From Chloracidobacterium thermophilum B (GTDB taxonomy: Bacteria; Acidobacteriota; Blastocatellia; Chloracidobacteriales; Chloracidobacteriaceae): a stretch of DNA of 64,000 nucleotides. The stretch is from assembly GCF_000226295.1 (NCBI RefSeq), contig NC_016024.1, positions 1,905,501 to 1,969,500 of the forward strand, written 5' to 3'. Position 1 is the stretch's first letter; every line of letters begins with the position of its first letter. The translations under genes were made by a program, and so were the position numbers. The notes under the pieces are model-generated. The model saw nothing but the letters and a program-made list of their open reading frames with translations, was not told where the DNA came from and searched no databases. Shown piece by piece: positions 10,871-54,123 of this stretch.

Positions 10871-10989
10871 GGGACAGGGCCAAGGTGCAGGAACAGAGGT
10901 GAAAGAAAACTGATGGGCTGAAGAGAAGATAGAACAGAAAATAATGTAAACCGGCAGGATTGTATAGCCACTTACCTTGGAGTCCCGGA

Positions 10990-11277
10990 CTGGTATCAGT
11001 CCACCCTGGATTCAATCCGCCAGGCTGGATGGAGAAGCAAAAAACGCCGCCAGATGCCGCTTCAGCTCCAGTTTGGCACGAAATAAGCGCGATTTGACCG
11101 TGCCAACGGCCACGCCCAGCACTTCGGCAATCTCCTCACAACTGAGTCCGTCGTATTCCTTCAGCACAAGGGTATCCCGAAACTCCGGCGGCAGGCGTTC
11201 CAGGGCGGCACGCACCAGCCGGGATCGCTCCCGAACTTCAAACATCACATCCGGCCGCCCTACTGCCTGCGGGTTCC
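10990..11277. repeat. Direct repeat copy A (3' part of sigma-factor gene)
   Basis: Matches 13245-13532 at a constant offset of 2255 bases, with roughly 15-20 mismatches counted by eye. It covers the sigma region-4 coding part plus about 22 bases beyond the stop codon. Similarity stops sharply at both ends. Confidence 0.9.
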
Positions 11278-11407
11278 AAACTGGCATCGGAACGAATACC
11301 GCCGGAACCGTTGCCAGTCGCCTTGAGGGATTCCCCGACGGTCCGGTTTCTTGGTCTGCCAGCGCCCCTCCCGTTGACTTTGCCAAAATCATCAGGGTTT
11401 TATGCAC
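11012..11407 (-). pseudogene. Truncated ECF sigma factor, region 4 only
   Basis: The last about 85 residues match the C-terminal half of the intact ECF sigma factor at 13267-13845 almost exactly (region 4 helix-turn-helix: LPPEFRDTLVLKEYDGLSCEEIAEVLG, split by few changes). The first about 45 residues, from a GTG at 11407, are unrelated Pro/Ala/Thr-rich sequence. Region 2, which binds core polymerase and the -10 element, is missing, so it cannot act as a normal sigma factor. Most likely a partial gene duplicate; a short region-4-only DNA-binding protein cannot be excluded. Confidence 0.75.
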
Positions 11408-11510: not shown

Positions 11511-11565
11511 CCAATTCACTGCCAATTTACTGCCAATTTACTGCCAATCCACTGCCAATCCACTT
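11511..11565. repeat. Five 11-bp tandem repeats
   Basis: Five consecutive 11-base units of consensus CCAATYYACTG: one CCAATTC, two CCAATTT and two CCAATCC variants, the last ending in CTT and running into the stop codon of the AlbA_2 gene. The spacing of about one helical turn resembles iterons or a protein-binding array, but it could be simple slippage. Confidence 0.8.
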
Positions 11566-13030
11566 AGCCCTCGGCGAGGAACAGCACGGTGCCGCGGCCT
11601 TTTCCCGTTTGACGGATCAAACCGAGTCCTCGGAGACGCTGAAGATCACTTTTGAGTTCGTTTACGTCGAGTTGCAAAGCCTGTTGAATCTTCTTCCGCC
11701 CAATCCCTGGCCGTTCTGAGAGCAACTGCAGAATCTTCCGCTGGCGCTCTGTCAAATCCTGCCTGACTTGCTGCGGCGGGATGTAGCGACTGGGTCGAAA
11801 GCGCACAAGCACCAGGTCAGGGCCTTCCTCAATTTCGGGACGCGGGAGGCCGGCTTGCTGTGTCAGTTCCGCCATCTTCAGCGTGCCCCGGCCCCACGAT
11901 TCGATAATGCCGCGGCGGTGGAACACCCGCGCGATCAGCGGGTTCCACGGCATCCACCCGGCGCTTTTCGTTTTCGGCCTGCGCTTCCTGCGGTGGAACA
12001 CCCGCGCAATCAGCGGGTTCCACGGCCGCGATTCGTGAGGCTGAAATAACTGCTCCGGCGTCAAGCCAAAGTGCAGGTTGCCAGTGGAGGTGATCTCCAA
12101 ACGATCCTGATAGATGGCCAGGCTCACCGACCCGCCGCCGCTGCTGTAGTCGCGGTGACACAGGGCGTTGGCCAACGCCTCCCGCAGGGCGACCGGCGGA
12201 TACAGCGGGTCGTCAATGCGCTCGAACAGCCCCGGCACGATCCGACCCGCGATCGGCAGGTTCTCCCGCAGAAAGCGTTCCGCTTTCTGCAGCAACTCGA
12301 AGGCGTGCCCGTGGAACTGGCGATTGTCCAGAAATTCGCCCTTATCGATCCCCTTGAACTTCGCCACCCGCAGCAGACATTGGGGAAACTCCGCCTCAAT
12401 CCGCGGCTGCTGGCCAAACAAGACCACCGCCGCCCGCAACAGGACACCATCCCGTGACAGCCCTAAACCGCGCAGCAACTCCAGCGGGTCGCGCGTGCCG
12501 GGTTCCTCCAGCCGGCCTCGGCGGATGGCTTCATCAATGGTGCGGGTGAGTTCGGTTCGGTCGAGATCGGCGACCGTCCACCTGTCTGCGGGTTCGGTCT
12601 CCCAGCGGCGCTCGCCGTGGAAGCGCTCGATCAAAATCCGGTTGTACTCGTCCCGGCTCATTCTGGGGCTGGTGTTACCGACCCGCTTGTACGCCTGTCC
12701 CTTGTAGCTGTACGGCCGGTTCGGGCCCGTCGAGACTTCAACAACGATGACTTGCCAGCCCGGCTTCACGTCCACGCGGTCGATCTGAGGGAAAACCGTC
12801 GGCTCGATCTGCTGGATTTCCTGGGCCAGTTCCTCAATGGTGCGATCTGAAACCGGCTGGCCGACAATCTGCCCCAAGGGATCGACGCCGAACAGCACGC
12901 GCCCGCCGCGCTGGTTGAGCATGGCGCAAAGGTCGTGCATCGCCTCCGAACGCTGGCCGGTGGTCTTCTTGAACTCCAGCGTTTCCGATTCGCCGGCCGC
13001 GACGAGTTGTTGCAGTTGTTCGAGCGTCAT
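11564..13030 (-). CDS. AlbA_2-domain ATP-binding protein (restriction-locus associated)
   Basis: 488 residues. The N-terminal AlbA_2/Schlafen-like domain (about 1-125, with SETLEFKKT and GGRVLFGVD) is followed by a GHKL-type ATP-binding domain of the HATPase_c_4 type (REALANALCHRDYSSGGG, ITSTGNLHFG, WGRGTLKM) and a C-terminal winged helix (about 420-488). Such proteins are common as accessory genes in type I restriction-modification loci and defence islands; function is unproven. The start ATG at 13030 overlaps the stop of the hsdS remnant (TGATG), implying translational coupling; GTG at 13033 is an alternative. A 25-residue segment is duplicated in frame inside the ATPase domain, which may disturb its C-terminal part. 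Confidence 0.82.
   Translation of the reverse strand: MTLEQLQQLVAAGESETLEFKKTTGQRSEAMHDLCAMLNQRGGRVLFGVDPLGQIVGQPVSDRTIEELAQEIQQIEPTVFPQIDRVDVKPGWQVIVVEVSTGPNRPYSYKGQAYKRVGNTSPRMSRDEYNRILIERFHGERRWETEPADRWTVADLDRTELTRTIDEAIRRGRLEEPGTRDPLELLRGLGLSRDGVLLRAAVVLFGQQPRIEAEFPQCLLRVAKFKGIDKGEFLDNRQFHGHAFELLQKAERFLRENLPIAGRIVPGLFERIDDPLYPPVALREALANALCHRDYSSGGGSVSLAIYQDRLEITSTGNLHFGLTPEQLFQPHESRPWNPLIARVFHRRKRRPKTKSAGWMPWNPLIARVFHRRGIIESWGRGTLKMAELTQQAGLPRPEIEEGPDLVLVRFRPSRYIPPQQVRQDLTERQRKILQLLSERPGIGRKKIQQALQLDVNELKSDLQRLRGLGLIRQTGKGRGTVLFLAEG
11916..12025. repeat. In-frame 75-bp duplication with inverted repeat inside AlbA_2 gene
   Basis: A 35-bp segment at 11916-11950 recurs at 11991-12025 with one mismatch, 75 bases away, so the reading frame is kept. 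Each copy contains gtggaac...gttccac arms plus an inner ccgc/gcgg, and so can fold as a hairpin. The protein reads PWNPLIARVFHRR twice, separated by a basic 12-residue spacer. Confidence 0.85.
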
Positions 13031-13200
13031 CACATCGCCCTCCCGACGATCCGCTCGGCGTCCGGCACCCGCAACTCGCCGGAGATCAGCTTCGGCAACA
13101 GTGCAGACCGCAACGCGGCGAGGATGCGGGATTCCAAGATGCTCTCTTGAAGTCGGCCGATCATCGGCTTGAACCGGTCAGTGAACGTCCCGGCCACTTC
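13030..13200 (-). pseudogene. hsdS: 3' remnant of type I restriction specificity subunit gene
   Basis: About 55 codons that end with the stop at 13030-13032 read as the C-terminal tail of HsdS: a helical ESRILAALRSALLPKLISG followed by ELRVPDAERI, the classic end of the S subunit. No target-recognition domain or start is present upstream; the reading frame passes into non-HsdS sequence near 13200 and then into the sigma repeat. No hsdM or hsdR is in the window. It is therefore a fragment of a lost type I restriction-modification locus, still joined to its AlbA_2 neighbour. Confidence 0.72.
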
Positions 13201-13244
13201 GGGTAATCCACAGTGGGTTCGAGTCCCTCTTGGGAGGCTACCGG

Positions 13245-13532
13245 CTGGTATCAGCCCACCCTGGATTCAATCCGCCGGGCTGGATGGAGAAGCAAAAAAC
13301 GCCGCCAGATGCCGCTTCAGCTCCAGTTTGGCGCGAAATAAGCGCGATTTGACCGTGCCAACGGCCACGCCCAGCACTTCGGCAATCTCCTCACAACTGA
13401 GGCCGTCGTATTCCTTCAGCACGAGGGTATCCCGAAACTCCGGCGACAGACGTTCCAGGGCCTCGCGCACCAGCCGGGATCGCTCCTGGGCTTCAAACAT
13501 CACATCCGGCCGCTCTACCGCCTGCGGTTCCC
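13245..13532. repeat. Direct repeat copy B (3' part of intact sigma-factor gene)
   Basis: Partner of 10990-11277. This copy is continuous with the intact sigma gene, so it is probably the original; the junction with the hsdS remnant lies just left of it. Confidence 0.9.
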
Positions 13533-13845
13533 GCACGGGCAGCGGCTCATCATTCGGCTCTGGCGCGACCATCACCCGGTGTTCACTCCGGCGCGTATCG
13601 CTGACCAGACGATTGAATGCGATCCGGTACAGATAGGTCTTGACCGAAGCCTCACCACGCCAACTCCCGGCATGTTCCACCAGAGCAACAAAGACATCCT
13701 GGCATAGCTCCTCAGCCCGTACAGGTGAGTCCAAACGGCGCGCCAGAAAACGGTAGATGGCCATCCGGTAGCGTTGATAGAGCTGGCTGAACGCCTGTTC
13801 ATCGCCCTGCTGAAACGCGCGCAGGAGTTCTTCATCAGTAGCCAT
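13267..13845 (-). CDS. ECF-type RNA polymerase sigma factor
   Basis: 192-residue sigma-70 family protein of the extracytoplasmic-function group. Region 2 (about 10-75: LYQRYRMAIYRFLARR, EELCQDVFVAL, SVKTYLYRIAFN) and region 4 (about 125-180: RDTLVLKEYDGLSCEEIAEVLG, VGTVKSRLFRAK) are both present, joined by an acidic/Pro linker. The start at 13845 gives the usual MATDEELLRAF opening; an upstream ATG at 13905 would add 20 unsupported residues. No anti-sigma gene is adjacent. The downstream neighbour is the hsdS/AlbA_2 scar, so any original partner may have been displaced. Confidence 0.88.
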   Translation of the reverse strand: MATDEELLRAFQQGDEQAFSQLYQRYRMAIYRFLARRLDSPVRAEELCQDVFVALVEHAGSWRGEASVKTYLYRIAFNRLVSDTRRSEHRVMVAPEPNDEPLPVREPQAVERPDVMFEAQERSRLVREALERLSPEFRDTLVLKEYDGLSCEEIAEVLGVAVGTVKSRLFRAKLELKRHLAAFFASPSSPAD

Positions 13846-13950
13846 GACCGGCTCGTGGGGTAACGAGCATTTTTTCAACCGGTGGACAGCGCCAGGGCCA
13901 GGCAAGACAGCCTGCCCGGCACCAGCGGCCTGGTACGATGGCAGCGACCA

Positions 13951-15525
13951 CTACTTCTTGAAGAGCTTGTCAAGAAAACCACCGCTTTTGTTGGATTTGA
14001 TGGCATCGAGTCCCTTGCGCGCGGCTTTGGAGTCAGGATCGAGGCGCAGGGCCTCATTGAACATTTTTTCCGCCTGAAGGTTCATGTTGGCGCGGGCATA
14101 GAGTTGCCCCAGCGCCACGAGGGGAGCGGGGTTGAACTGGTCCAACTCGGCCGCTTTCTTGAGGGACTGTTCAGCTTCGCGCTGCATCTTGGGATGCGCC
14201 GCAAGCGTCGTGCCCAGCAGCAAGTGGTAGCGGGGAGCGTTCGGGTTGAGGGTCACGGCTTCCCGCAGCAACGCCACAGCACCGGCAAAATCACGGTTGG
14301 CAATTTTGGTACGGGCGTCCTGAAAGGCCTGCTCTGCCCGGGCCTCGCGCTGCGCTGTCGTTTCGGCCGGTGGCGGCGGTGGGGCGCTTCCCCGTGGCGT
14401 TGGGGTGGCGGCGGACAGTGGCATGGGGGCGAGAACGGCAGGCTTTTCACCGGCGTCCCGGATGGCTTCGTAGGCTTCTGTAATCCGCGCAAAAATTGCC
14501 TCCACCTGGCGGCGCGTCTCCAGGGTGGCACTGAGGTGGCGGTCAGGGTGGAAGTCCTTGGCCAGCCGGTAGTAGGCATCCCGAATCTCATCCCGCGTGG
14601 CGTGGGGTGAGATCCCCAGGATTTCATAGGGATCATTTGTGGTATCAAGCCGGGCCTGCATTGCCAGCAACATGTTGACAGCCTTGAGGGAGCCAGTGCG
14701 CTTGGCGGCCGCATCCGCAGCCCGTGGGGGCACAATCGGCGGCGCACTCACGGCCTGTTCAACCACTTCGGCCGGAATTTCCATCTGCCCGGTCTCCCGG
14801 TTGAGGACCGGCGCGGCGTGGCGTTCCAGAATTCCTGCCGAAATCAAGCCGTACAGTGCCTGCAGGACAACATTCGGGGGGGCGTTGACGAGCATCATCG
14901 CCTGCAACACGTTCATGGGAATGTTGATGCCATTCACCAACTGGCGCTCGATGGGCTTGAGCGACAACGACTGGGTGCGCAGCAGGGGGTTGTTCGACGG
15001 ACCAATCAGGCGGTTCAAATCACCCATCCCCCGCTGGATGACACTGAAATCCCGGATGCGGCGGACGCCTTCCAGAATGATGTTTGCCGTCGAAAGCTCC
15101 AGCCGCAGGTCGTCCGGCACCGGCTTCTCCTGAGCCGTGAAGTGATACTGCCCACTCGTCCACTCGAACATCGAGTAAATGATGCCCAGAATCTGAAAGG
15201 TGACGGCGTTGGACAAGTCCCGTTCAGAAATGATGCCCTGCTCCACCAGCACGCGGCCAAACCGCTTCCCACGGGTCATGGCGGCCGAGGCCCGCTGGAA
15301 GTCTTCCTGTGACAGCAGGCCATAACGCATCATGCTTTCGCCAATGCGGTCGGCGCGGTCGTTGCTTCGCGCAAACACAATGGCACCCAGCTCAAAGTAA
15401 ATGGATTTGGTGAGCGCCTGGTGGTTCACTGTCAGCTCGCCGCTCAGACGCCGGGTGTAAATCCGCCGGATGACATCCGGCAGCGCATCCTGAATGAGAT
15501 CACCCTGCAACAGTGGACTCGTCAC
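13951..15525 (-). CDS. PATAN/DUF4388 - DnaJ - TPR protein
   Basis: 524 residues in three parts. The N-terminal part (about 10-150) is a DUF4388/PATAN-type module (RRLSGELTV, IYFELGAIVFARS, RFGRVLVEQGIISERDL). A middle helical region follows. A J-domain spans about 300-370 with DPYEILGI and an intact HPD (DFHPDRH), so it could stimulate an Hsp70 ATPase. Three or so TPR helix pairs (about 415-505) and a Lys-rich tail (GGFLDKLFKK) complete it. PATAN domains are linked to two-component and gliding/social-motility regulation in other phyla; the J-TPR part suggests chaperone recruitment. A paralogue lies at 51872-53947. It is not a standard DnaJ because it has no zinc finger. Confidence 0.85.
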   Translation of the reverse strand: MTSPLLQGDLIQDALPDVIRRIYTRRLSGELTVNHQALTKSIYFELGAIVFARSNDRADRIGESMMRYGLLSQEDFQRASAAMTRGKRFGRVLVEQGIISERDLSNAVTFQILGIIYSMFEWTSGQYHFTAQEKPVPDDLRLELSTANIILEGVRRIRDFSVIQRGMGDLNRLIGPSNNPLLRTQSLSLKPIERQLVNGINIPMNVLQAMMLVNAPPNVVLQALYGLISAGILERHAAPVLNRETGQMEIPAEVVEQAVSAPPIVPPRAADAAAKRTGSLKAVNMLLAMQARLDTTNDPYEILGISPHATRDEIRDAYYRLAKDFHPDRHLSATLETRRQVEAIFARITEAYEAIRDAGEKPAVLAPMPLSAATPTPRGSAPPPPPAETTAQREARAEQAFQDARTKIANRDFAGAVALLREAVTLNPNAPRYHLLLGTTLAAHPKMQREAEQSLKKAAELDQFNPAPLVALGQLYARANMNLQAEKMFNEALRLDPDSKAARKGLDAIKSNKSGGFLDKLFKK

Positions 15526-15593
15526 GGCACACTCCTCTTGGGTTCAGGTGAGTGGAGTCAGCCCCTTGGACGGCCAGCTTCACCCCGCCTGTA

Positions 15594-16667
15594 TCATTCC
15601 ACTTCCACAGCCTCACCGTCCTTGCCCTTGATGATCGGGTCAGACGGTCGCGCCCGCTCTCCCTGGCGGTCCGCTCCGCGCAACACACCACTATCGTCCA
15701 TCAGGAACGAACGCCGCCCGGTTTCCCGGTAACGTTCCGGCACCGCATGAATCTGAAACGTCGGGGGAACCGTCTGGTTGTTGACCACCACCTCGATGCG
15801 ATAGCCCCGGTAACGCCCATCGGCGAGTCCGGTAATCTCCCCTGCCCGGCGCAACTCAGCCAGCGTGCCAAAACGATTCTGCCCGACGCCTAACGCATAG
15901 CGTGCCTGGGCTTCCTGCAACTGACTGAGCAAGGGTAACACGGCCGCTTCATTGGCAGCGACCCGGATTTCAAACAACCGGTCAAGATCAAACACTTCAT
16001 CAGTTTGCCCGCCAAAATCAGCGGCATACAGGGCAACGATGCGCCAGGTCTTGAGTTTCCGGTCACGGGTGAGCACCACACTGATCACCACGGGCCTGGC
16101 CTCTTCGCTGTTGAGGGACGCCCGCAACTCGACCACCGACAGGTTTTCTTCCGTGATGTCCCGAAAGGCGATGTTGCCGACGATGCGCGTTCCCGAACGC
16201 AGCAGCATCTCACGCGCCCCGCTCCCCGTGATGACGGACTCCACCCGGACACCCCGTCCAGCCAGCCGGCCGAGGGGGTGATCGCCCAGCAGCGCCTGCC
16301 GGATGTCATTGTAGGCGGCGCTGTCGTTGGTCGCCAGACTGGAGAGCGTCGCCTGGGCGCGGTCAGTAAAAAAGGCCCGGATGGTCGGGTCATCCCCCCG
16401 AAAGAAGGCTTCAACGCAGGACGCGACAATATCCACCGGACGCAGTTCGCGGGAACGTTGGGAAGCGGCTGCGGCCACAACCGGTCCGGCGAATGATTCC
16501 GGCCGGGCTGACAGTTCCAACCGCTCTCCCCAGGCCGGGAGAGCAACCAGAGGGGTGAGCAGACTGAGGGGGCTGACACCCAGGACACAGGCAAAACGAA
16601 AAAGACGCCAACCACAGGCTGGCGTGCGTGTTTGAGAAGGATAAGCACTCTGCATAGGCATCATCAT
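15594..16667 (-). CDS. Exported protein with pilin-like C-terminal domain
   Basis: 357 residues, no named family recognised. A signal peptide is likely (basic R-L-F-R-F, then a hydrophobic run to about residue 45, ALPAWGE). The middle (about 75-240) has a mixed alpha/beta look. Residues about 250-335 (LLSQLQEAQARYAL, FGTLAELRRAGEI, YRGYRIEVV, RSFLMDDSGVLR) resemble the soluble head of acidobacterial type IV pilins, but the pilin N-terminal helix is missing. Several start codons are possible (16667, 16664, 16661, 16655). It is cotranscribed with or divergent from small neighbours; the role is unknown. Confidence 0.65.
   Translation of the reverse strand: MMMPMQSAYPSQTRTPACGWRLFRFACVLGVSPLSLLTPLVALPAWGERLELSARPESFAGPVVAAAASQRSRELRPVDIVASCVEAFFRGDDPTIRAFFTDRAQATLSSLATNDSAAYNDIRQALLGDHPLGRLAGRGVRVESVITGSGAREMLLRSGTRIVGNIAFRDITEENLSVVELRASLNSEEARPVVISVVLTRDRKLKTWRIVALYAADFGGQTDEVFDLDRLFEIRVAANEAAVLPLLSQLQEAQARYALGVGQNRFGTLAELRRAGEITGLADGRYRGYRIEVVVNNQTVPPTFQIHAVPERYRETGRRSFLMDDSGVLRGADRQGERARPSDPIIKGKDGEAVEVE
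16605..16625 (-). terminator. Terminator-like hairpin inside a signal-peptide coding region
   Basis: On the minus strand a 6-bp stem (acgcca/tggcgt, 9-base loop) is followed directly by ctttttcg. It falls within the first 25 codons of the exported protein gene, so if active it would act as an attenuator. The stem is short and it may be chance. Confidence 0.3.
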
Positions 16668-16903
16668 TATGGATTGTTCCGGTGCGTTTCAAGCTGGCCT
16701 CTGGGCAGGGCCATTTGACAGCGCCGCCGGATGCGTTCACCTTGGTCATGACTTATCATACGTCCGCCCAGAGGTGTGGCAGCTTTGGGGACGCCACTGG
16801 CCAGGAGAAGTTGCCCGAAGAGGGGCAGTCAAATGCTGGACGTGACGGCATCCGCATGGAGGTGGGAAACCACCCCCTGGGTTGCCGCATCGCATGCTGT
16901 GCC

Positions 16904-17224
16904 ATGTACGACCGAGTGATCCGCCTGCGCGGGAGTGAAACCTACGAACTGGCAACCCGTACCCGTTTCGGTTACGAACTCGATCCCAGCCGCAACTTTG
17001 GCATCCGGCTCGTCGTGCGGGCCTACGTCGTGGCTGAGGACTACAGTATTGAAGATTTTGCGGCCATGGTGCGGAATGAAGCGGCGCGCCGTGAAGAAAC
17101 ACAGCGTTTTCGGGCAGCCTTTGCGCTTGACAGCCGCGATCTCGACGCTCCCTACCCCGAATCCCACCCGGAACCTGAGCCACCGCCGACCACGCCGCCC
17201 GCCGACCTGCCGCCCAAGCCATAA
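16904..17224 (+). CDS. Small uncharacterised protein
   Basis: 106 residues if started at the ATG at 16904; in-frame ATGs also occur at 16682 and 16856. The first 60 residues look folded (a short beta-rich start YDRVIRLRGSETYELATRTRF, then a helix EDFAAMVRNEAARREETQRF), and the last 30 are Pro/Glu-rich and disordered. No recognised domain. The upstream extension looks less protein-like, which is why the later start is preferred. It stands between a divergent exported protein and the cupin gene. It may be real, but support is limited. Confidence 0.42.
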   Translation: MYDRVIRLRGSETYELATRTRFGYELDPSRNFGIRLVVRAYVVAEDYSIEDFAAMVRNEAARREETQRFRAAFALDSRDLDAPYPESHPEPEPPPTTPPADLPPKP

Positions 17225-17308
17225 CGCCTGACACGTGAGGCGGTGGTGCGCGGTGGTTTCCCGGAACTGCCCCGGCCACAAAAGTAACCAAGGAGTGACA
17301 GGCAAGCT

Positions 17309-17917
17309 ATGGAAACCCTGCCCCCAACGATGAGCCGTCAACCCTCCTCCGCACCGGATGGACATCTGTCCCCCCACGGGGCCACCCCCTCGGCCGCGTC
17401 CCCGGTTCACCGTTTCACGCCATGCACAGAGCCTTTCCGGTGGGAAGGCATCCCTGTTACGGCATACCAGTCCACCCCGGCGACCGCTGCCGACTTTTCC
17501 GGTATTACCCGGCAGACGCTGTTTGGTCACAGCGGAGAAACCATTGGTTTTGAAGTGCGCTACTTTGAGATTGCCCCCGGCGGCTGGTCATCCCTCGAAT
17601 GCCACGAGCATGCCCATGCTGTCATCGGGCTGCGCGGGTCTGGGAAAGTGCTGCTGGGGGACACCGTACAGACGCTGGGGTTTCTTGACCTGGCCTACAT
17701 TGGGGCCAACTGCGTTCACCGCCTGGTCAATGACGGGACGACACCGTTCGGCTTCCTGTGCATTGTGGATGCGAAACGAGACCGTCCGCGCCGTCTCCGT
17801 CCGGCCGATGTACCGGAACTGCTGGCCAATCCCGTGTTGGCTCCGCTCATTCAGCGGGCAGTGCCTCCGGTGCAAGAAGATGCCATTCAGACAACACCCC
17901 GCGCTGACCAGACCTGA
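17309..17917 (+). CDS. Single-domain cupin protein
   Basis: 202 residues. The first 65 are Pro/Ser/Ala-rich. The cupin barrel spans about 70-155, with candidate metal ligands His99, His101 and His103 (CHEHAHAVIG) and the second motif His137-x3-Asn141 (NCVHRLVND). The substrate is unknown; such cupins may be small-molecule dioxygenases, isomerases or binding proteins. AAGGAG lies 13 bases before the ATG. It sits upstream of hrcA, which has its own promoter-like sequence, so it is probably transcribed separately. Confidence 0.75.
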   Translation: METLPPTMSRQPSSAPDGHLSPHGATPSAASPVHRFTPCTEPFRWEGIPVTAYQSTPATAADFSGITRQTLFGHSGETIGFEVRYFEIAPGGWSSLECHEHAHAVIGLRGSGKVLLGDTVQTLGFLDLAYIGANCVHRLVNDGTTPFGFLCIVDAKRDRPRRLRPADVPELLANPVLAPLIQRAVPPVQEDAIQTTPRADQT

Positions 17918-17930
17918 GAAAGGGTGCGGC

Positions 17931-17960
17931 TTGACACTTTTTTTTGACCGGTGGTAGCTT
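17931..17960 (+). promoter_or_regulatory. Promoter-like sequence upstream of hrcA
   Basis: A perfect -35 hexamer ttgaca (17931-17936) is followed by a T-rich spacer of 18 bases and a weak -10 tagctt (17955-17960), about 37 bases before the hrcA start. No CIRCE inverted repeat is visible next to it. Confidence 0.4.
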
Positions 17961-17996
17961 TTTTCGACATCTTTTTTTCAAAAAAACCAATGGTTT

Positions 17997-19178
17997 ATGG
18001 GCAAGCGGCGGCCAGTTCATGGACTTGATGAACGTAGTCACGAGCTACTTCTGGCGCTCGTTCGCCTCCACATTGCCACAGGCGAACCCATTGGCTCGCG
18101 GACGCTCTCCAAACAAACCGGTCAAAAGCTGAGCCCGGCCTCTATCCGCAACATCATGGCAGATTTGGAGGAGCAGGGTTATCTGACCCAGCCGCACACC
18201 TCCGCCGGACGGGTTCCAACCGACCGTGGCTACCGCTACTATGTGGACACACTGCTGGCGGATTTCGACGCACGTCCTTCCCGGACAGATGAAGAAATCA
18301 TCCAGCGCAGCCTGTTTTCCGATCCGACGGTGACTGGCGAGGATGTCTTGGCCCGCGCCTCCCACGTCCTTTCCAACCTGTCGTCGCACGTCGGGATCGT
18401 GCTCTCTCCGCCACTTTCCCGTGACATCCTGCAACACATTGAGTTTATCCGTCTCGAAGCCCGCCGCGTCCTGGTGGTGGCCGTGTCACGTACCGGACTG
18501 GTCCGCAACTTCGTGGTGCGCCTTGACGAAGACCTCTCACCGAGCGAGTTGGAACGCACGGCCAACTACATTGTCGAAAACTTTGCCGGGCGGAGTCTGG
18601 CGGATATTCGCGTCGAATTGCTCAAGCGAATGTCAGAAGAAAAGCATCTCTATGACCGGCTGCTCAGGAATGCCCTTGTGCTGTGCAACCGGGATTTGGG
18701 CAATGGTGCGACCGAAAGCGATGTGTATGTGGATGGCACGGTCAACATGCTTGATGCCCCGGAGTTTGCCGATGCTGCCCGTATGCGGGCGCTCTTTCGC
18801 ATGTTCGAGGAAAAAGGGCGGTTGGTCAAAATCATCAATGCCTGTCTGGCACAGGCCGAAACCACCCGGGGGATCGTGGTGCAAATTGGTATGGAGCATC
18901 ACGTACCCGGCTTGCGGGACTGTGCCATCGTGACAGCTCCCTATCACTATCGGCATGATTCCGTTGGGAGCTTCACGGTCGTCGGTCCGATGCGCATGAA
19001 GTACGGGCGGGTGATGCGTCTGGTCGGCTACATGGCAAAAATGTTTGACCAACTGCTGAACGACGCCCCTTCTTCCCCGTTTCCCCCGGCGCTTGTCGGG
19101 CCGCAGCCCGTGGGTTCGCTGGCAGGCCAGATTGAAATCGTGAACCTGTCCAGCCGCTATAATCTGGTCGGGGGATGA
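17997..19178 (+). CDS. hrcA: Heat-inducible transcription repressor HrcA
   Basis: 393 residues. The N-terminal winged helix (about 1-80: GSRTLSKQTG, SPASIRNIMADLEEQGYL, HTSAGRVPTDRGYRYYVD) is the HrcA DNA-binding domain, followed by the GAF-like sensory domain (VVQIGMEH, VGSFTVVGPMRMKYGRVM). HrcA normally binds CIRCE and represses groE and dnaK operons, with GroEL aiding its folding. It heads the hrcA-grpE-dnaK-dnaJ group. The length is slightly above average because of a Pro-rich C-terminal extension. Confidence 0.94.
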   Translation: MGKRRPVHGLDERSHELLLALVRLHIATGEPIGSRTLSKQTGQKLSPASIRNIMADLEEQGYLTQPHTSAGRVPTDRGYRYYVDTLLADFDARPSRTDEEIIQRSLFSDPTVTGEDVLARASHVLSNLSSHVGIVLSPPLSRDILQHIEFIRLEARRVLVVAVSRTGLVRNFVVRLDEDLSPSELERTANYIVENFAGRSLADIRVELLKRMSEEKHLYDRLLRNALVLCNRDLGNGATESDVYVDGTVNMLDAPEFADAARMRALFRMFEEKGRLVKIINACLAQAETTRGIVVQIGMEHHVPGLRDCAIVTAPYHYRHDSVGSFTVVGPMRMKYGRVMRLVGYMAKMFDQLLNDAPSSPFPPALVGPQPVGSLAGQIEIVNLSSRYNLVGG

Positions 19179-20324: not shown

Positions 20325-20445
20325 GTGCCGGACGGCTCAGCTCAGGTAGGCAGACCCCGCACGACAGCACGTTGTGCGCCGTGTCGCGGCGCACCGAAAG
20401 TCATTTCTTCACGCATGTCTTCAGGGCATGCCACGGACTGATGTC

Positions 20446-51871: not shown

Positions 51872-53947
51872 CTAGCCGGACTTGTTGCCCTCCGGGTCGT
51901 CCAACCCGAACACCTTTCCCACCAAGGCCTGAAGGCGCCTGCCGGTGGCCACCCGGAGGCTGCCGGTCAACCGGGGTGTCGTTTTCTGCTTGGCGCCGAT
52001 GGCCTGGCGACGTTTCATGAGTTCTTCGTGATCTGGGGACAGTTCCAGACCCCGTTCGAGACATTCCACGGCGCGGGATTCAAGTCCGAACTTGAGGTAG
52101 AGATCGGATAACTCCATCAGCAACTCCGCCACCTCGTCCGGGTCACGGCACAGATCAATTGCCGTGAGAAAGGACTTTTCCGCCTCTTTGTTCCGCCCCG
52201 GCATGCGGAGCAAAACCCGCGCCATCAAGGCATGGTAGTCGGCATTGTTGGGTCGCTGCTCAACGGCCCGGCGAATGGATTGATAGGCCCGCTCGACATC
52301 ACCATTGCCCATGTATTCGACCGTCCGCAGATACAGTTCGGAGGCTGGAATCGGCGGCTCAGCCGGGCGACTGGGCGCTTTGGGATACGCTCCGGTCAAC
52401 CTCTGGGGCGGCGATGCTGTCGGCGGCAGAGTCCCGTTGGGGGACACCGGCGGCGCAGGAGGAGTCGGGACAGGCGGGCACTGGGCTTCCACGTTTGGTG
52501 CAGAGTTTGGCGCAGAATTTGGTGCCTTCGCACTGGGGGCTTCCGTGGGCGTGCTTGCGGGCGTACCTGAACCCGGCGTGTTCGAGGCTGGCGCAGAGAC
52601 CGTCGGCCGCCGCAGGATGGGCGGCGTCGGAAATGAACTGTTGGCCGGTGGTTTGGGTGGGGCGGCAGCAGATGACACTGGCGGACGTGACGCCTCTGCT
52701 GTCGGGGCTGGTCGGGCAGGCGGCACAGGCGGCCGGGGCGGCATGACCGGTGGCTTCGGCACGTTCCCAGCAGGCGGCGAGGACCGTCCGGCAACCGGCG
52801 GCGGGCTGGGCGGCGTGGGACGTGCGGCTGGATAGGAGCCGGTAGAGAAGCGGCCTCCCGGCGGCGTTGAACGGGAGTGGTGACTTGCCAGGGTCAGATC
52901 ATACTTGCGCCGTTTTTCCTCATCGCTCAGCACGTCATAGGCCTGCTGCACGGCGATGAACACACGTTCCAGTTCCGCCTTGACCTGAAAATCAAACGCA
53001 GCCAGTTGGGAATGGCGATCGGGATGGAACTTCTTGGCCAGCTCCCGATAGGCTTTTTTGAGTTCTTCCGGGGTGAAACGCCGATTGATGCCCAGGATTT
53101 GGTAGTGGCTTCCCCCACCATCCACAACCCGCAGCTTCTCTTCCAGCTCGAAGCACAGTTCGGCCGCCTGCCGGGCATCAATCCCGGCAGATGCCTTTGC
53201 CGATGAAGCCGCTGCGCCCTTGACGTTTGCTTCAATGACCGGCAGCGGGTCGGGATCAGCAAAACTCACGATGCCGGTCATCGTGAAGGCGCACAGCGCG
53301 CGTAAGACCTGCTCTTCGGGCAGGGGCACTGTCCGGCAGACCTCCTCGATCCGAAGGGGCGCATCGAGCCGGGAGAGCACAAATGCCTCTTCCGAAGTGA
53401 GTGTCAGTCCCGGAACGTTGACCTGCCCGGCCACAACCGGCTGAAGGACCCGCTGGGGCGAACCCAGCCACCGTCGGATCAGTCCGAGATCGGGCAGGTT
53501 CCGAATGCCATCGAAGATGAGGCTCACCGGTGACAGGGGCTGCTGAAAGCCATCCACATGCACCTTCTGGGGCTGAAACTGATACTCACCGGTCGTCCAT
53601 GGGAAAAGCGAGTGCACCAGATAGGTGACGTGGCCGGTCAGCATGGCTTGCAGGTCGGCGGCGGTCAGATAGCCCAGCTCCACCAGACAGGCCCCAAGGC
53701 GTTTCCCCTTTTTGGTTTCCAGCATCGCCTGCGCAAGCTGTTCAGGAGAAATACAACCCAACATGCACAACCGTTCGCCGAAGCGTTCGGTGACAACTTC
53801 GCTGGCGGCGTAAACCACCGCACCCTGCTCAAAGTACACATGACGCACCACCTGCGGCTGCCTCAACGTCAACGTTCCGCTCAATCGCCGTTGGTGGCAG
53901 GCGCCAATAAGACGTGGAACACAGGTGTCTTCGAGTCGCTGTGTCAT
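51872..53947 (-). CDS. PATAN/DUF4388 - DnaJ - Pro-rich - TPR protein
   Basis: 691 residues from the ATG at 53947. PATAN/DUF4388-type module at about 10-120 (RRLSGTLTL, VYFEQGAVVYAAS, RLGACLVELGYLTAADL). A J-domain at about 278-345 keeps HPD (KKFHPDRHS). A Pro/Ala-rich disordered stretch of about 185 residues follows, then TPR-like helices (about 545-640: LYLRTVEYMGNGDVERAYQ, PNNADYHALMARVLLR). It has the same plan as 13951-15525, with a much longer linker. I chose the later ATG because a Shine-Dalgarno-like GGGAG precedes it; an earlier start at 53992 adds 15 residues. A terminator-like hairpin follows. Confidence 0.86.
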   Translation of the reverse strand: MTQRLEDTCVPRLIGACHQRRLSGTLTLRQPQVVRHVYFEQGAVVYAASEVVTERFGERLCMLGCISPEQLAQAMLETKKGKRLGACLVELGYLTAADLQAMLTGHVTYLVHSLFPWTTGEYQFQPQKVHVDGFQQPLSPVSLIFDGIRNLPDLGLIRRWLGSPQRVLQPVVAGQVNVPGLTLTSEEAFVLSRLDAPLRIEEVCRTVPLPEEQVLRALCAFTMTGIVSFADPDPLPVIEANVKGAAASSAKASAGIDARQAAELCFELEEKLRVVDGGGSHYQILGINRRFTPEELKKAYRELAKKFHPDRHSQLAAFDFQVKAELERVFIAVQQAYDVLSDEEKRRKYDLTLASHHSRSTPPGGRFSTGSYPAARPTPPSPPPVAGRSSPPAGNVPKPPVMPPRPPVPPARPAPTAEASRPPVSSAAAPPKPPANSSFPTPPILRRPTVSAPASNTPGSGTPASTPTEAPSAKAPNSAPNSAPNVEAQCPPVPTPPAPPVSPNGTLPPTASPPQRLTGAYPKAPSRPAEPPIPASELYLRTVEYMGNGDVERAYQSIRRAVEQRPNNADYHALMARVLLRMPGRNKEAEKSFLTAIDLCRDPDEVAELLMELSDLYLKFGLESRAVECLERGLELSPDHEELMKRRQAIGAKQKTTPRLTGSLRVATGRRLQALVGKVFGLDDPEGNKSG

Positions 53948-54123
53948 GCAAACGACTCCCAGGATACGAACATGTGCGGGGCATTGCACCAAGAATCCGG
54001 CAGCAATGGTCGTGATGGATGACAGTATTTCCCAGTTTTCTGCATTTTGACAAGCCCACCCTGGCCTGGCAGCTCAGCCGCCGTCACTTTGGACGGAATC
54101 GGACGGCTGTGCCGGGAAGGGCT

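Follow-up and report, generated by a model that had tools for sequence, protein, structure and literature searches.

Within the 64,000-nucleotide stretch of Chloracidobacterium thermophilum B DNA analysed here (the window), a minus-strand gene encodes a 524-residue protein that its sequence and modelled fold predict to be a dedicated class C J-domain co-chaperone. Its PATAN (DUF4388) domain carries an insertion (residues 60-111) that, by profile searches and structural modelling, is a predicted homologue of the MshEN c-di-GMP-binding domain. J-proteins decide where Hsp70 acts, and the occurrence of a c-di-GMP-sensor-type fold in such a protein suggests that the chaperone may be guided by a second messenger or by what is left of one. 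The literature that we searched contained no J-protein under the control of a cyclic dinucleotide.

Gene and domain architecture

The open reading frame comprises 524 codons of the minus strand (Table 1); the plus strand of the same stretch does not code for the gene. From the N to the C terminus, the protein consists of the PATAN domain with its MshEN-type insert, a winged-helix-like part, a flexible linker, the J domain, a second linker and TPR repeats. An earlier note on this DNA had claimed that PATAN/DUF4388, an HPD-bearing J domain and TPRs lie in one chain that has no DnaJ zinc finger. Pfam confirms all three domains, and neither the zinc finger (DnaJ_CXXCXGXG, PF00684) nor the DnaJ C-terminal domain (DnaJ_C, PF01556) is matched by the 524-residue protein. 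The claim also survives the DUF4388 profile search set beforehand as a check that could refute it, with a match at 79.4 bits against a curated cut-off of 25. We read residues 159-236, a stretch that has no Pfam match, as winged-helix-like. The full-length AlphaFold model has a pTM of 0.49, and the arrangement of the domains is therefore left out of our interpretation.

Table 1. Features of the PATAN-J gene, its two neighbours and a paralogue, with coordinates in the window
Feature	Position	Strand	Details
PATAN-MshEN-J-TPR gene	13951..15525	-	524 aa; GTG start at 15525
Ribosome-binding site AGAGGAG	15532-15538	-	six bases 5' of the GTG start
DUF4388/PATAN, residues 7-158, split by insertion	15052..15507	-	Pfam PF14332 E 3e-22; AlphaFold pLDDT 88.8 (model of the N-terminal 245 residues)
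Four-helix insert, predicted homologue of the MshEN c-di-GMP-binding domain, residues 60-111	15193..15348	-	NF053729, PDB profile, AlphaFold/Foldseek
MshEN motif 1, residues 60-83, degenerate	15277..15348	-	RIG and GLL kept; Leu21 to Ser; Gln24 to Met
MshEN motif 2, residues 88-111	15193..15264	-	11/11 scored positions kept, including Arg88, Gly90, Gly97 and Gln111
Winged-helix-like stretch after PATAN, residues 159-236	14818..15051	-	kept through the family
J domain, residues 298-358	14452..14634	-	Pfam PF00226 E 1.9e-14
HPD motif, residues 326-328	14542..14550	-	invariant in 29/29 relatives
TPR repeats, residues 396-513	13987..14340	-	Pfam TPRs within 404-505
C-terminal tail, residues 514-524, GGFLDKLFKK type	13954..13986	-	low model confidence
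Upstream neighbour, weak DUF2950-like	15594..16667	-	same strand; order kept in genus only
Downstream neighbour, ECF sigma factor	13267..13905	-	same strand; order kept in genus only
PATAN-MshEN-J-TPR paralogue	51872..53992	-	DUF4388 53495-53935; MshEN insert 53639-53785; J domain 52898-53107

J domains that bear an HPD motif trigger ATP hydrolysis by Hsp70. The match to the J-domain profile, a search that the earlier note had asked for, scores 53.9 bits (cut-off 27.8) and ends at position 56 of 63, before helix IV. The protein has the class C combination (an HPD-bearing J domain with neither zinc finger nor DnaJ C-terminal domain) and not that of a class A or B DnaJ, whereas the DnaJ encoded at 22443-23588 matches both PF00684 and PF01556. 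As in other class C (type III) J-proteins, a J domain without a zinc finger is joined to other domains; the targeting module is different here. Many family members share the basic-hydrophobic tail of GGFLDKLFKK type, behind linkers that vary; it possibly serves membrane or partner contact.

An MshEN-like insertion in the PATAN domain

The PATAN domain was described in 2006 by Makarova et al. with "an alpha-helical insertion", in the wording of the title as cited in PMC11580455. The DUF4388 match spans 152 residues over 119 profile positions, which indicates that something is inserted in the present protein as well. The insert of about 52 residues matches NCBIfam NF053729 (c-di-GMP_motif, "cyclic di-GMP-binding domain-containing protein, MshE-related") at E 5.8e-9, with 35.6 bits by hmmscan of the protein, just below the curated cut-off of 38 bits, and 39.9 bits in the genome scan, above it. 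A profile built from 13 close relatives retrieves from the PDB PilF (6f8l, E 1.8e-13), MshE with c-di-GMP (5htl, 5e-7) and PilB (1e-6), all matches covering residues ~50-110.

The assignment is further supported by the AlphaFold model of the N-terminal 245 residues, in which the insert folds as four helices (61-67, 73-81, 89-95 and 101-119). These follow PATAN strands 29-35, 38-45 and 48-54 and precede strand 126-131, and thus form an alpha-helical insertion within a beta-rich fold. Foldseek superposes the insert on 5htl_A at 1.6 A across 53 columns (probability 1.00); the E-value of 0.52 is not significant alone, so we give this overlay weight only in combination with the sequence matches. 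By sequence profile and model, the insert has the 53-residue tandem-motif four-helix MshEN fold. A PDB fold search with the N-terminal model gave no significant match for the PATAN core; its hits to actin-like folds and to PilM, at a TM of about 0.15, are noise.

In the literature searched, which took in the MshEN paper without its supplementary tables, the PATAN insertion is nowhere stated to be MshEN-like. The PATAN regulators of type IV pili (PatA, PixE, PixG and LsiR) have the same kind of domain with its alpha-helical insertion, joined to receiver domains, whereas the protein described here joins PATAN to a J domain and TPRs. With an MshEN identity of the insert, the PATAN domain, long without explanation, would gain a biochemical role that can be tested, and regulators of phototaxis and of pili could be tied to c-di-GMP.

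The candidate ligand site

The insert shares with the MshEN/GSPII domains (MshE 5HTL, PilF GSPII-B and PilB) the four-helix tandem-motif fold, the RxG and GLL/GII signatures and the motif-2 Gln. Unlike them, it sits within PATAN, has no C-terminal GSPII subdomain, has a degenerate motif 1 and has a spacer between the motifs that is one residue shorter than in canonical MshEN. In motif 1, Arg60, Gly62, Gly69 and the hydrophobic pair are still present, and Met stands in place of the ribose- and phosphate-contacting Gln. The two motifs together retain 20 of 22 scored MshEN positions, and they are not both intact with both Gln.

Loss of the motif-1 Gln extends to every J-family member checked, while the Gln is present in the non-J PATAN inserts checked. 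In four remote J members (L032, L035, L036 and L041) the J domain is kept and much or most of the MshEN motif is gone. Together these observations imply that the family as a whole cannot have ligand binding as its function. Among Blastocatellia members both RxG signatures are conserved and the motif-2 Gln is present nearly always. Because motif 1 is degenerate and its Gln is gone in the J family, the ligand site of the 524-residue protein is a candidate only; from its sequence, binding of c-di-GMP is possible and, on balance, doubtful. We put a higher likelihood on binding by the paralogue at 51872-53992, whose MshEN score of 50.1 bits is the best among the four J paralogues.

In other Acidobacteriota, PATAN proteins that have no J domain contain MshEN motifs close to the canonical form at the corresponding PATAN position. 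In one of them, L107, 21 of 22 scored positions are kept (55.8 bits), with two RLG..Q motifs and a 5-residue spacer. J-less PATAN proteins with such inserts are found in L095-L113 (for example L107:1085-2419), and that of L112 terminates in a T2SSG-like pseudopilin domain.

Family, paralogues and selection

The PATAN-J family is found across the Acidobacteriota, a phylum with little-studied signalling: 62 of 297 genomes of the phylum contain matches at E 1e-30 or better. A narrower search for related loci reached mainly Blastocatellia. All 29 aligned members (23-92% identity) have DUF4388, DnaJ and HPD, and 20 of the 29 match NF053729; the Chloracidobacterium relatives are 85-86% identical. 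One member (L022:511-2628) apparently has two J domains per chain with an HPD in each. The single DUF4388 match in a search of plasmids was in Thermomicrobium.

Genome scans of the two contigs (2,683,362 and 1,012,010 bases) gave 17 DUF4388, 7 J-domain, 7 GGDEF and 2 weak PilZ matches. The five NF053729 matches are PilB and four PATAN proteins, and these four are exactly the PATAN proteins that have a J domain. The gene at 13951-15525 therefore has three paralogues, one within the window, where it adjoins ATP synthase genes. In the family tree, the 524-residue protein groups with the paralogue at C1:1485.7 kb on a common Blastocatellia branch and the other two paralogues fall elsewhere; this scatter over the tree indicates that the paralogues are old. 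A single branch (support 100/99) splits J from non-J PATAN proteins in an unrooted tree that combines sets obtained by separate searches, a split consistent with a single origin of the PATAN-J fusion.

Values of dN/dS against orthologues of 86-87% identity are 0.04-0.06 for the whole gene and 0.02-0.08 in the computable domains, the insert and the J domain (0.04-0.07 where computable) included; synonymous sites are near saturation, so these values are rough. Purifying selection on the MshEN insert is as strong as on the rest of the gene. The PATAN-J-TPR architecture is thus far beyond chance, as it recurs in diverged Acidobacteriota with HPD in 29/29 and low dN/dS.

Genomic neighbourhood

The hrcA start at 17997 is 2.47 kb from the PATAN-J gene and dnaK, at 20374, about 4.85 kb, both divergent from it. 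The earlier note had placed a DnaK operon about 2.5 kb away, which holds for hrcA and fails as evidence of partnership. The hrcA-grpE-dnaK-dnaJ genes adjoin the PATAN-J gene in two of three congeners; in the remaining one (L050) its other neighbours are kept and hrcA-grpE-dnaK is missing, as it is beside the PATAN-J gene in all more distant relatives examined. The genome also encodes another full-length DnaK (C1:2256947), which scores higher against the profile than the DnaK of the window. Nearness to dnaK therefore says little about partnership, and we rejected a DnaK partnership inferred from proximity.

No pilus genes were found beside the family members looked at. A shared pathway read from the neighbours was also rejected, as paralogues and distant orthologues are flanked by an OGG-like glycosylase, a nucleotidyl transferase, a carbon-nitrogen hydrolase and a beta-barrel. 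A search for CIRCE-like elements with up to 3 mismatches found none anywhere within the window, even for hrcA, so that it is uninformative on heat-shock control of the PATAN-J gene. With none in the region around hrcA (16600-18000), HrcA in this genome may use a diverged operator.

Proposed mechanism and alternatives

We consider it probable that the 524-residue protein is a J-protein of class C that directs DnaK, through its PATAN-MshEN module, to a specific target, possibly pilus-linked and possibly under c-di-GMP gating. The module would recognise a specific cytoplasmic partner, and the J domain would trigger ATP hydrolysis by DnaK, so that DnaK closes on this partner or on clients bound to the TPRs. 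Hsp70 would thereby be brought to one machine, and the protein would not be a general folder. More tentatively, the MshEN module might report c-di-GMP, or its relic site might serve protein contacts, and partner choice or exposure of the J domain might depend on a c-di-GMP signal. As the most likely class of target we would guess the type IV pilus motor, since cyanobacterial PATAN regulators bind the pilus motor PilB1 (PMC7690835, PMC12288463) and PilB is the only other MshEN-motif protein of this genome. Purified C. thermophilum PilB binds c-di-GMP (PMC11656802). In describing the protein as a signalling adaptor, the earlier note was borne out by the architecture as regards a dedicated, non-general J-protein; "signalling" had only PATAN to go on and was guesswork, and the actual clue to signalling, the MshEN-type insert, was overlooked.

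The closest parallels come from two systems. The PilZ-DnaK chaperones CsdK1 and CsdK2 of Myxococcus xanthus likewise fuse a c-di-GMP receptor-type domain to an Hsp70-system protein, and one of the two has an incomplete binding motif (PMC10313047); in these, PilZ is joined to Hsp70 itself, whereas here an MshEN-like domain is fused to a J co-chaperone. DnaK1 and DnaJ3 act with PilB at cyanobacterial pili (PMC9239167), which makes DnaJ3 a J-protein at a specific machine; the protein described here has another targeting module, and its link to the pilus is conjectural.

How far the ligand enters is the point on which the main alternative turns. The MshEN bundle may be a ligand-free relic, a scaffold or protein-contact surface in a constitutive targeting J-adaptor, which is in essence the picture of the earlier note, differs from the reading that we favour in the ligand only and has, in our view, close to an even chance. 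The loss of the motif-1 Gln in all J members checked against its retention in non-J inserts, the disappearance of most ligand positions in remote members and the failure of PilF GSPII-A, with one degenerate motif, to bind c-di-GMP (PMC11731258) all point to such a relic. The conserved RxG signatures and nearly constant motif-2 Gln of Blastocatellia members argue against it, as does purifying selection on the insert equal to that on the rest of the gene; in PilF GSPII-B, moreover, binding persists at 460-950 nM when Gln is changed to Glu in either motif alone and is lost when both are changed (PMC11731258). At the other extreme stands a second-messenger-gated co-chaperone, in which c-di-GMP bound in the MshEN bundle would alter the choice of partner or the exposure of the J domain, and DnaK would reach its target only at certain c-di-GMP levels; the PATAN "alpha-helical insertion" would more widely be an MshEN receptor, near-canonical in many PATAN proteins of Acidobacteriota. 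We regard this as unlikely.

Two further explanations concern the chaperone part. A general J-protein or TPR holdase, backing up DnaJ in folding under stress, would fit TPRs able to hold clients and the hrcA-grpE-dnaK genes 2.5 kb off in this genome, but that neighbourhood is not conserved, the window lacks a CIRCE-like element, and the protein has neither zinc finger nor C-terminal client domain. Four diverged paralogues alongside a full DnaJ also suggest specialisation, and we hold this explanation to be improbable. That the J domain is a fossil no longer working with DnaK, in a plain PATAN-TPR scaffold, is very improbable given HPD in all 29 members despite their divergence and the low J-domain dN/dS, even though the profile match stops short of helix IV and the J domain of paralogue C1:1486556 scores just 33 bits.

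Other features of the window

The 3' half of the ECF sigma gene is present a second time, in broken form, at 10985-11290, 93% identical over 306 bases to 13241-13545. This copy sits on the far side of the Schlafen/AlbA gene, as a recent local duplication or insertion. The Schlafen/AlbA_2 gene (11564-13033) itself contains a direct duplication of 37 bases, 97% identical with starts 75 bases apart, that encodes WNPLIARVFHRR twice and is probably recent.
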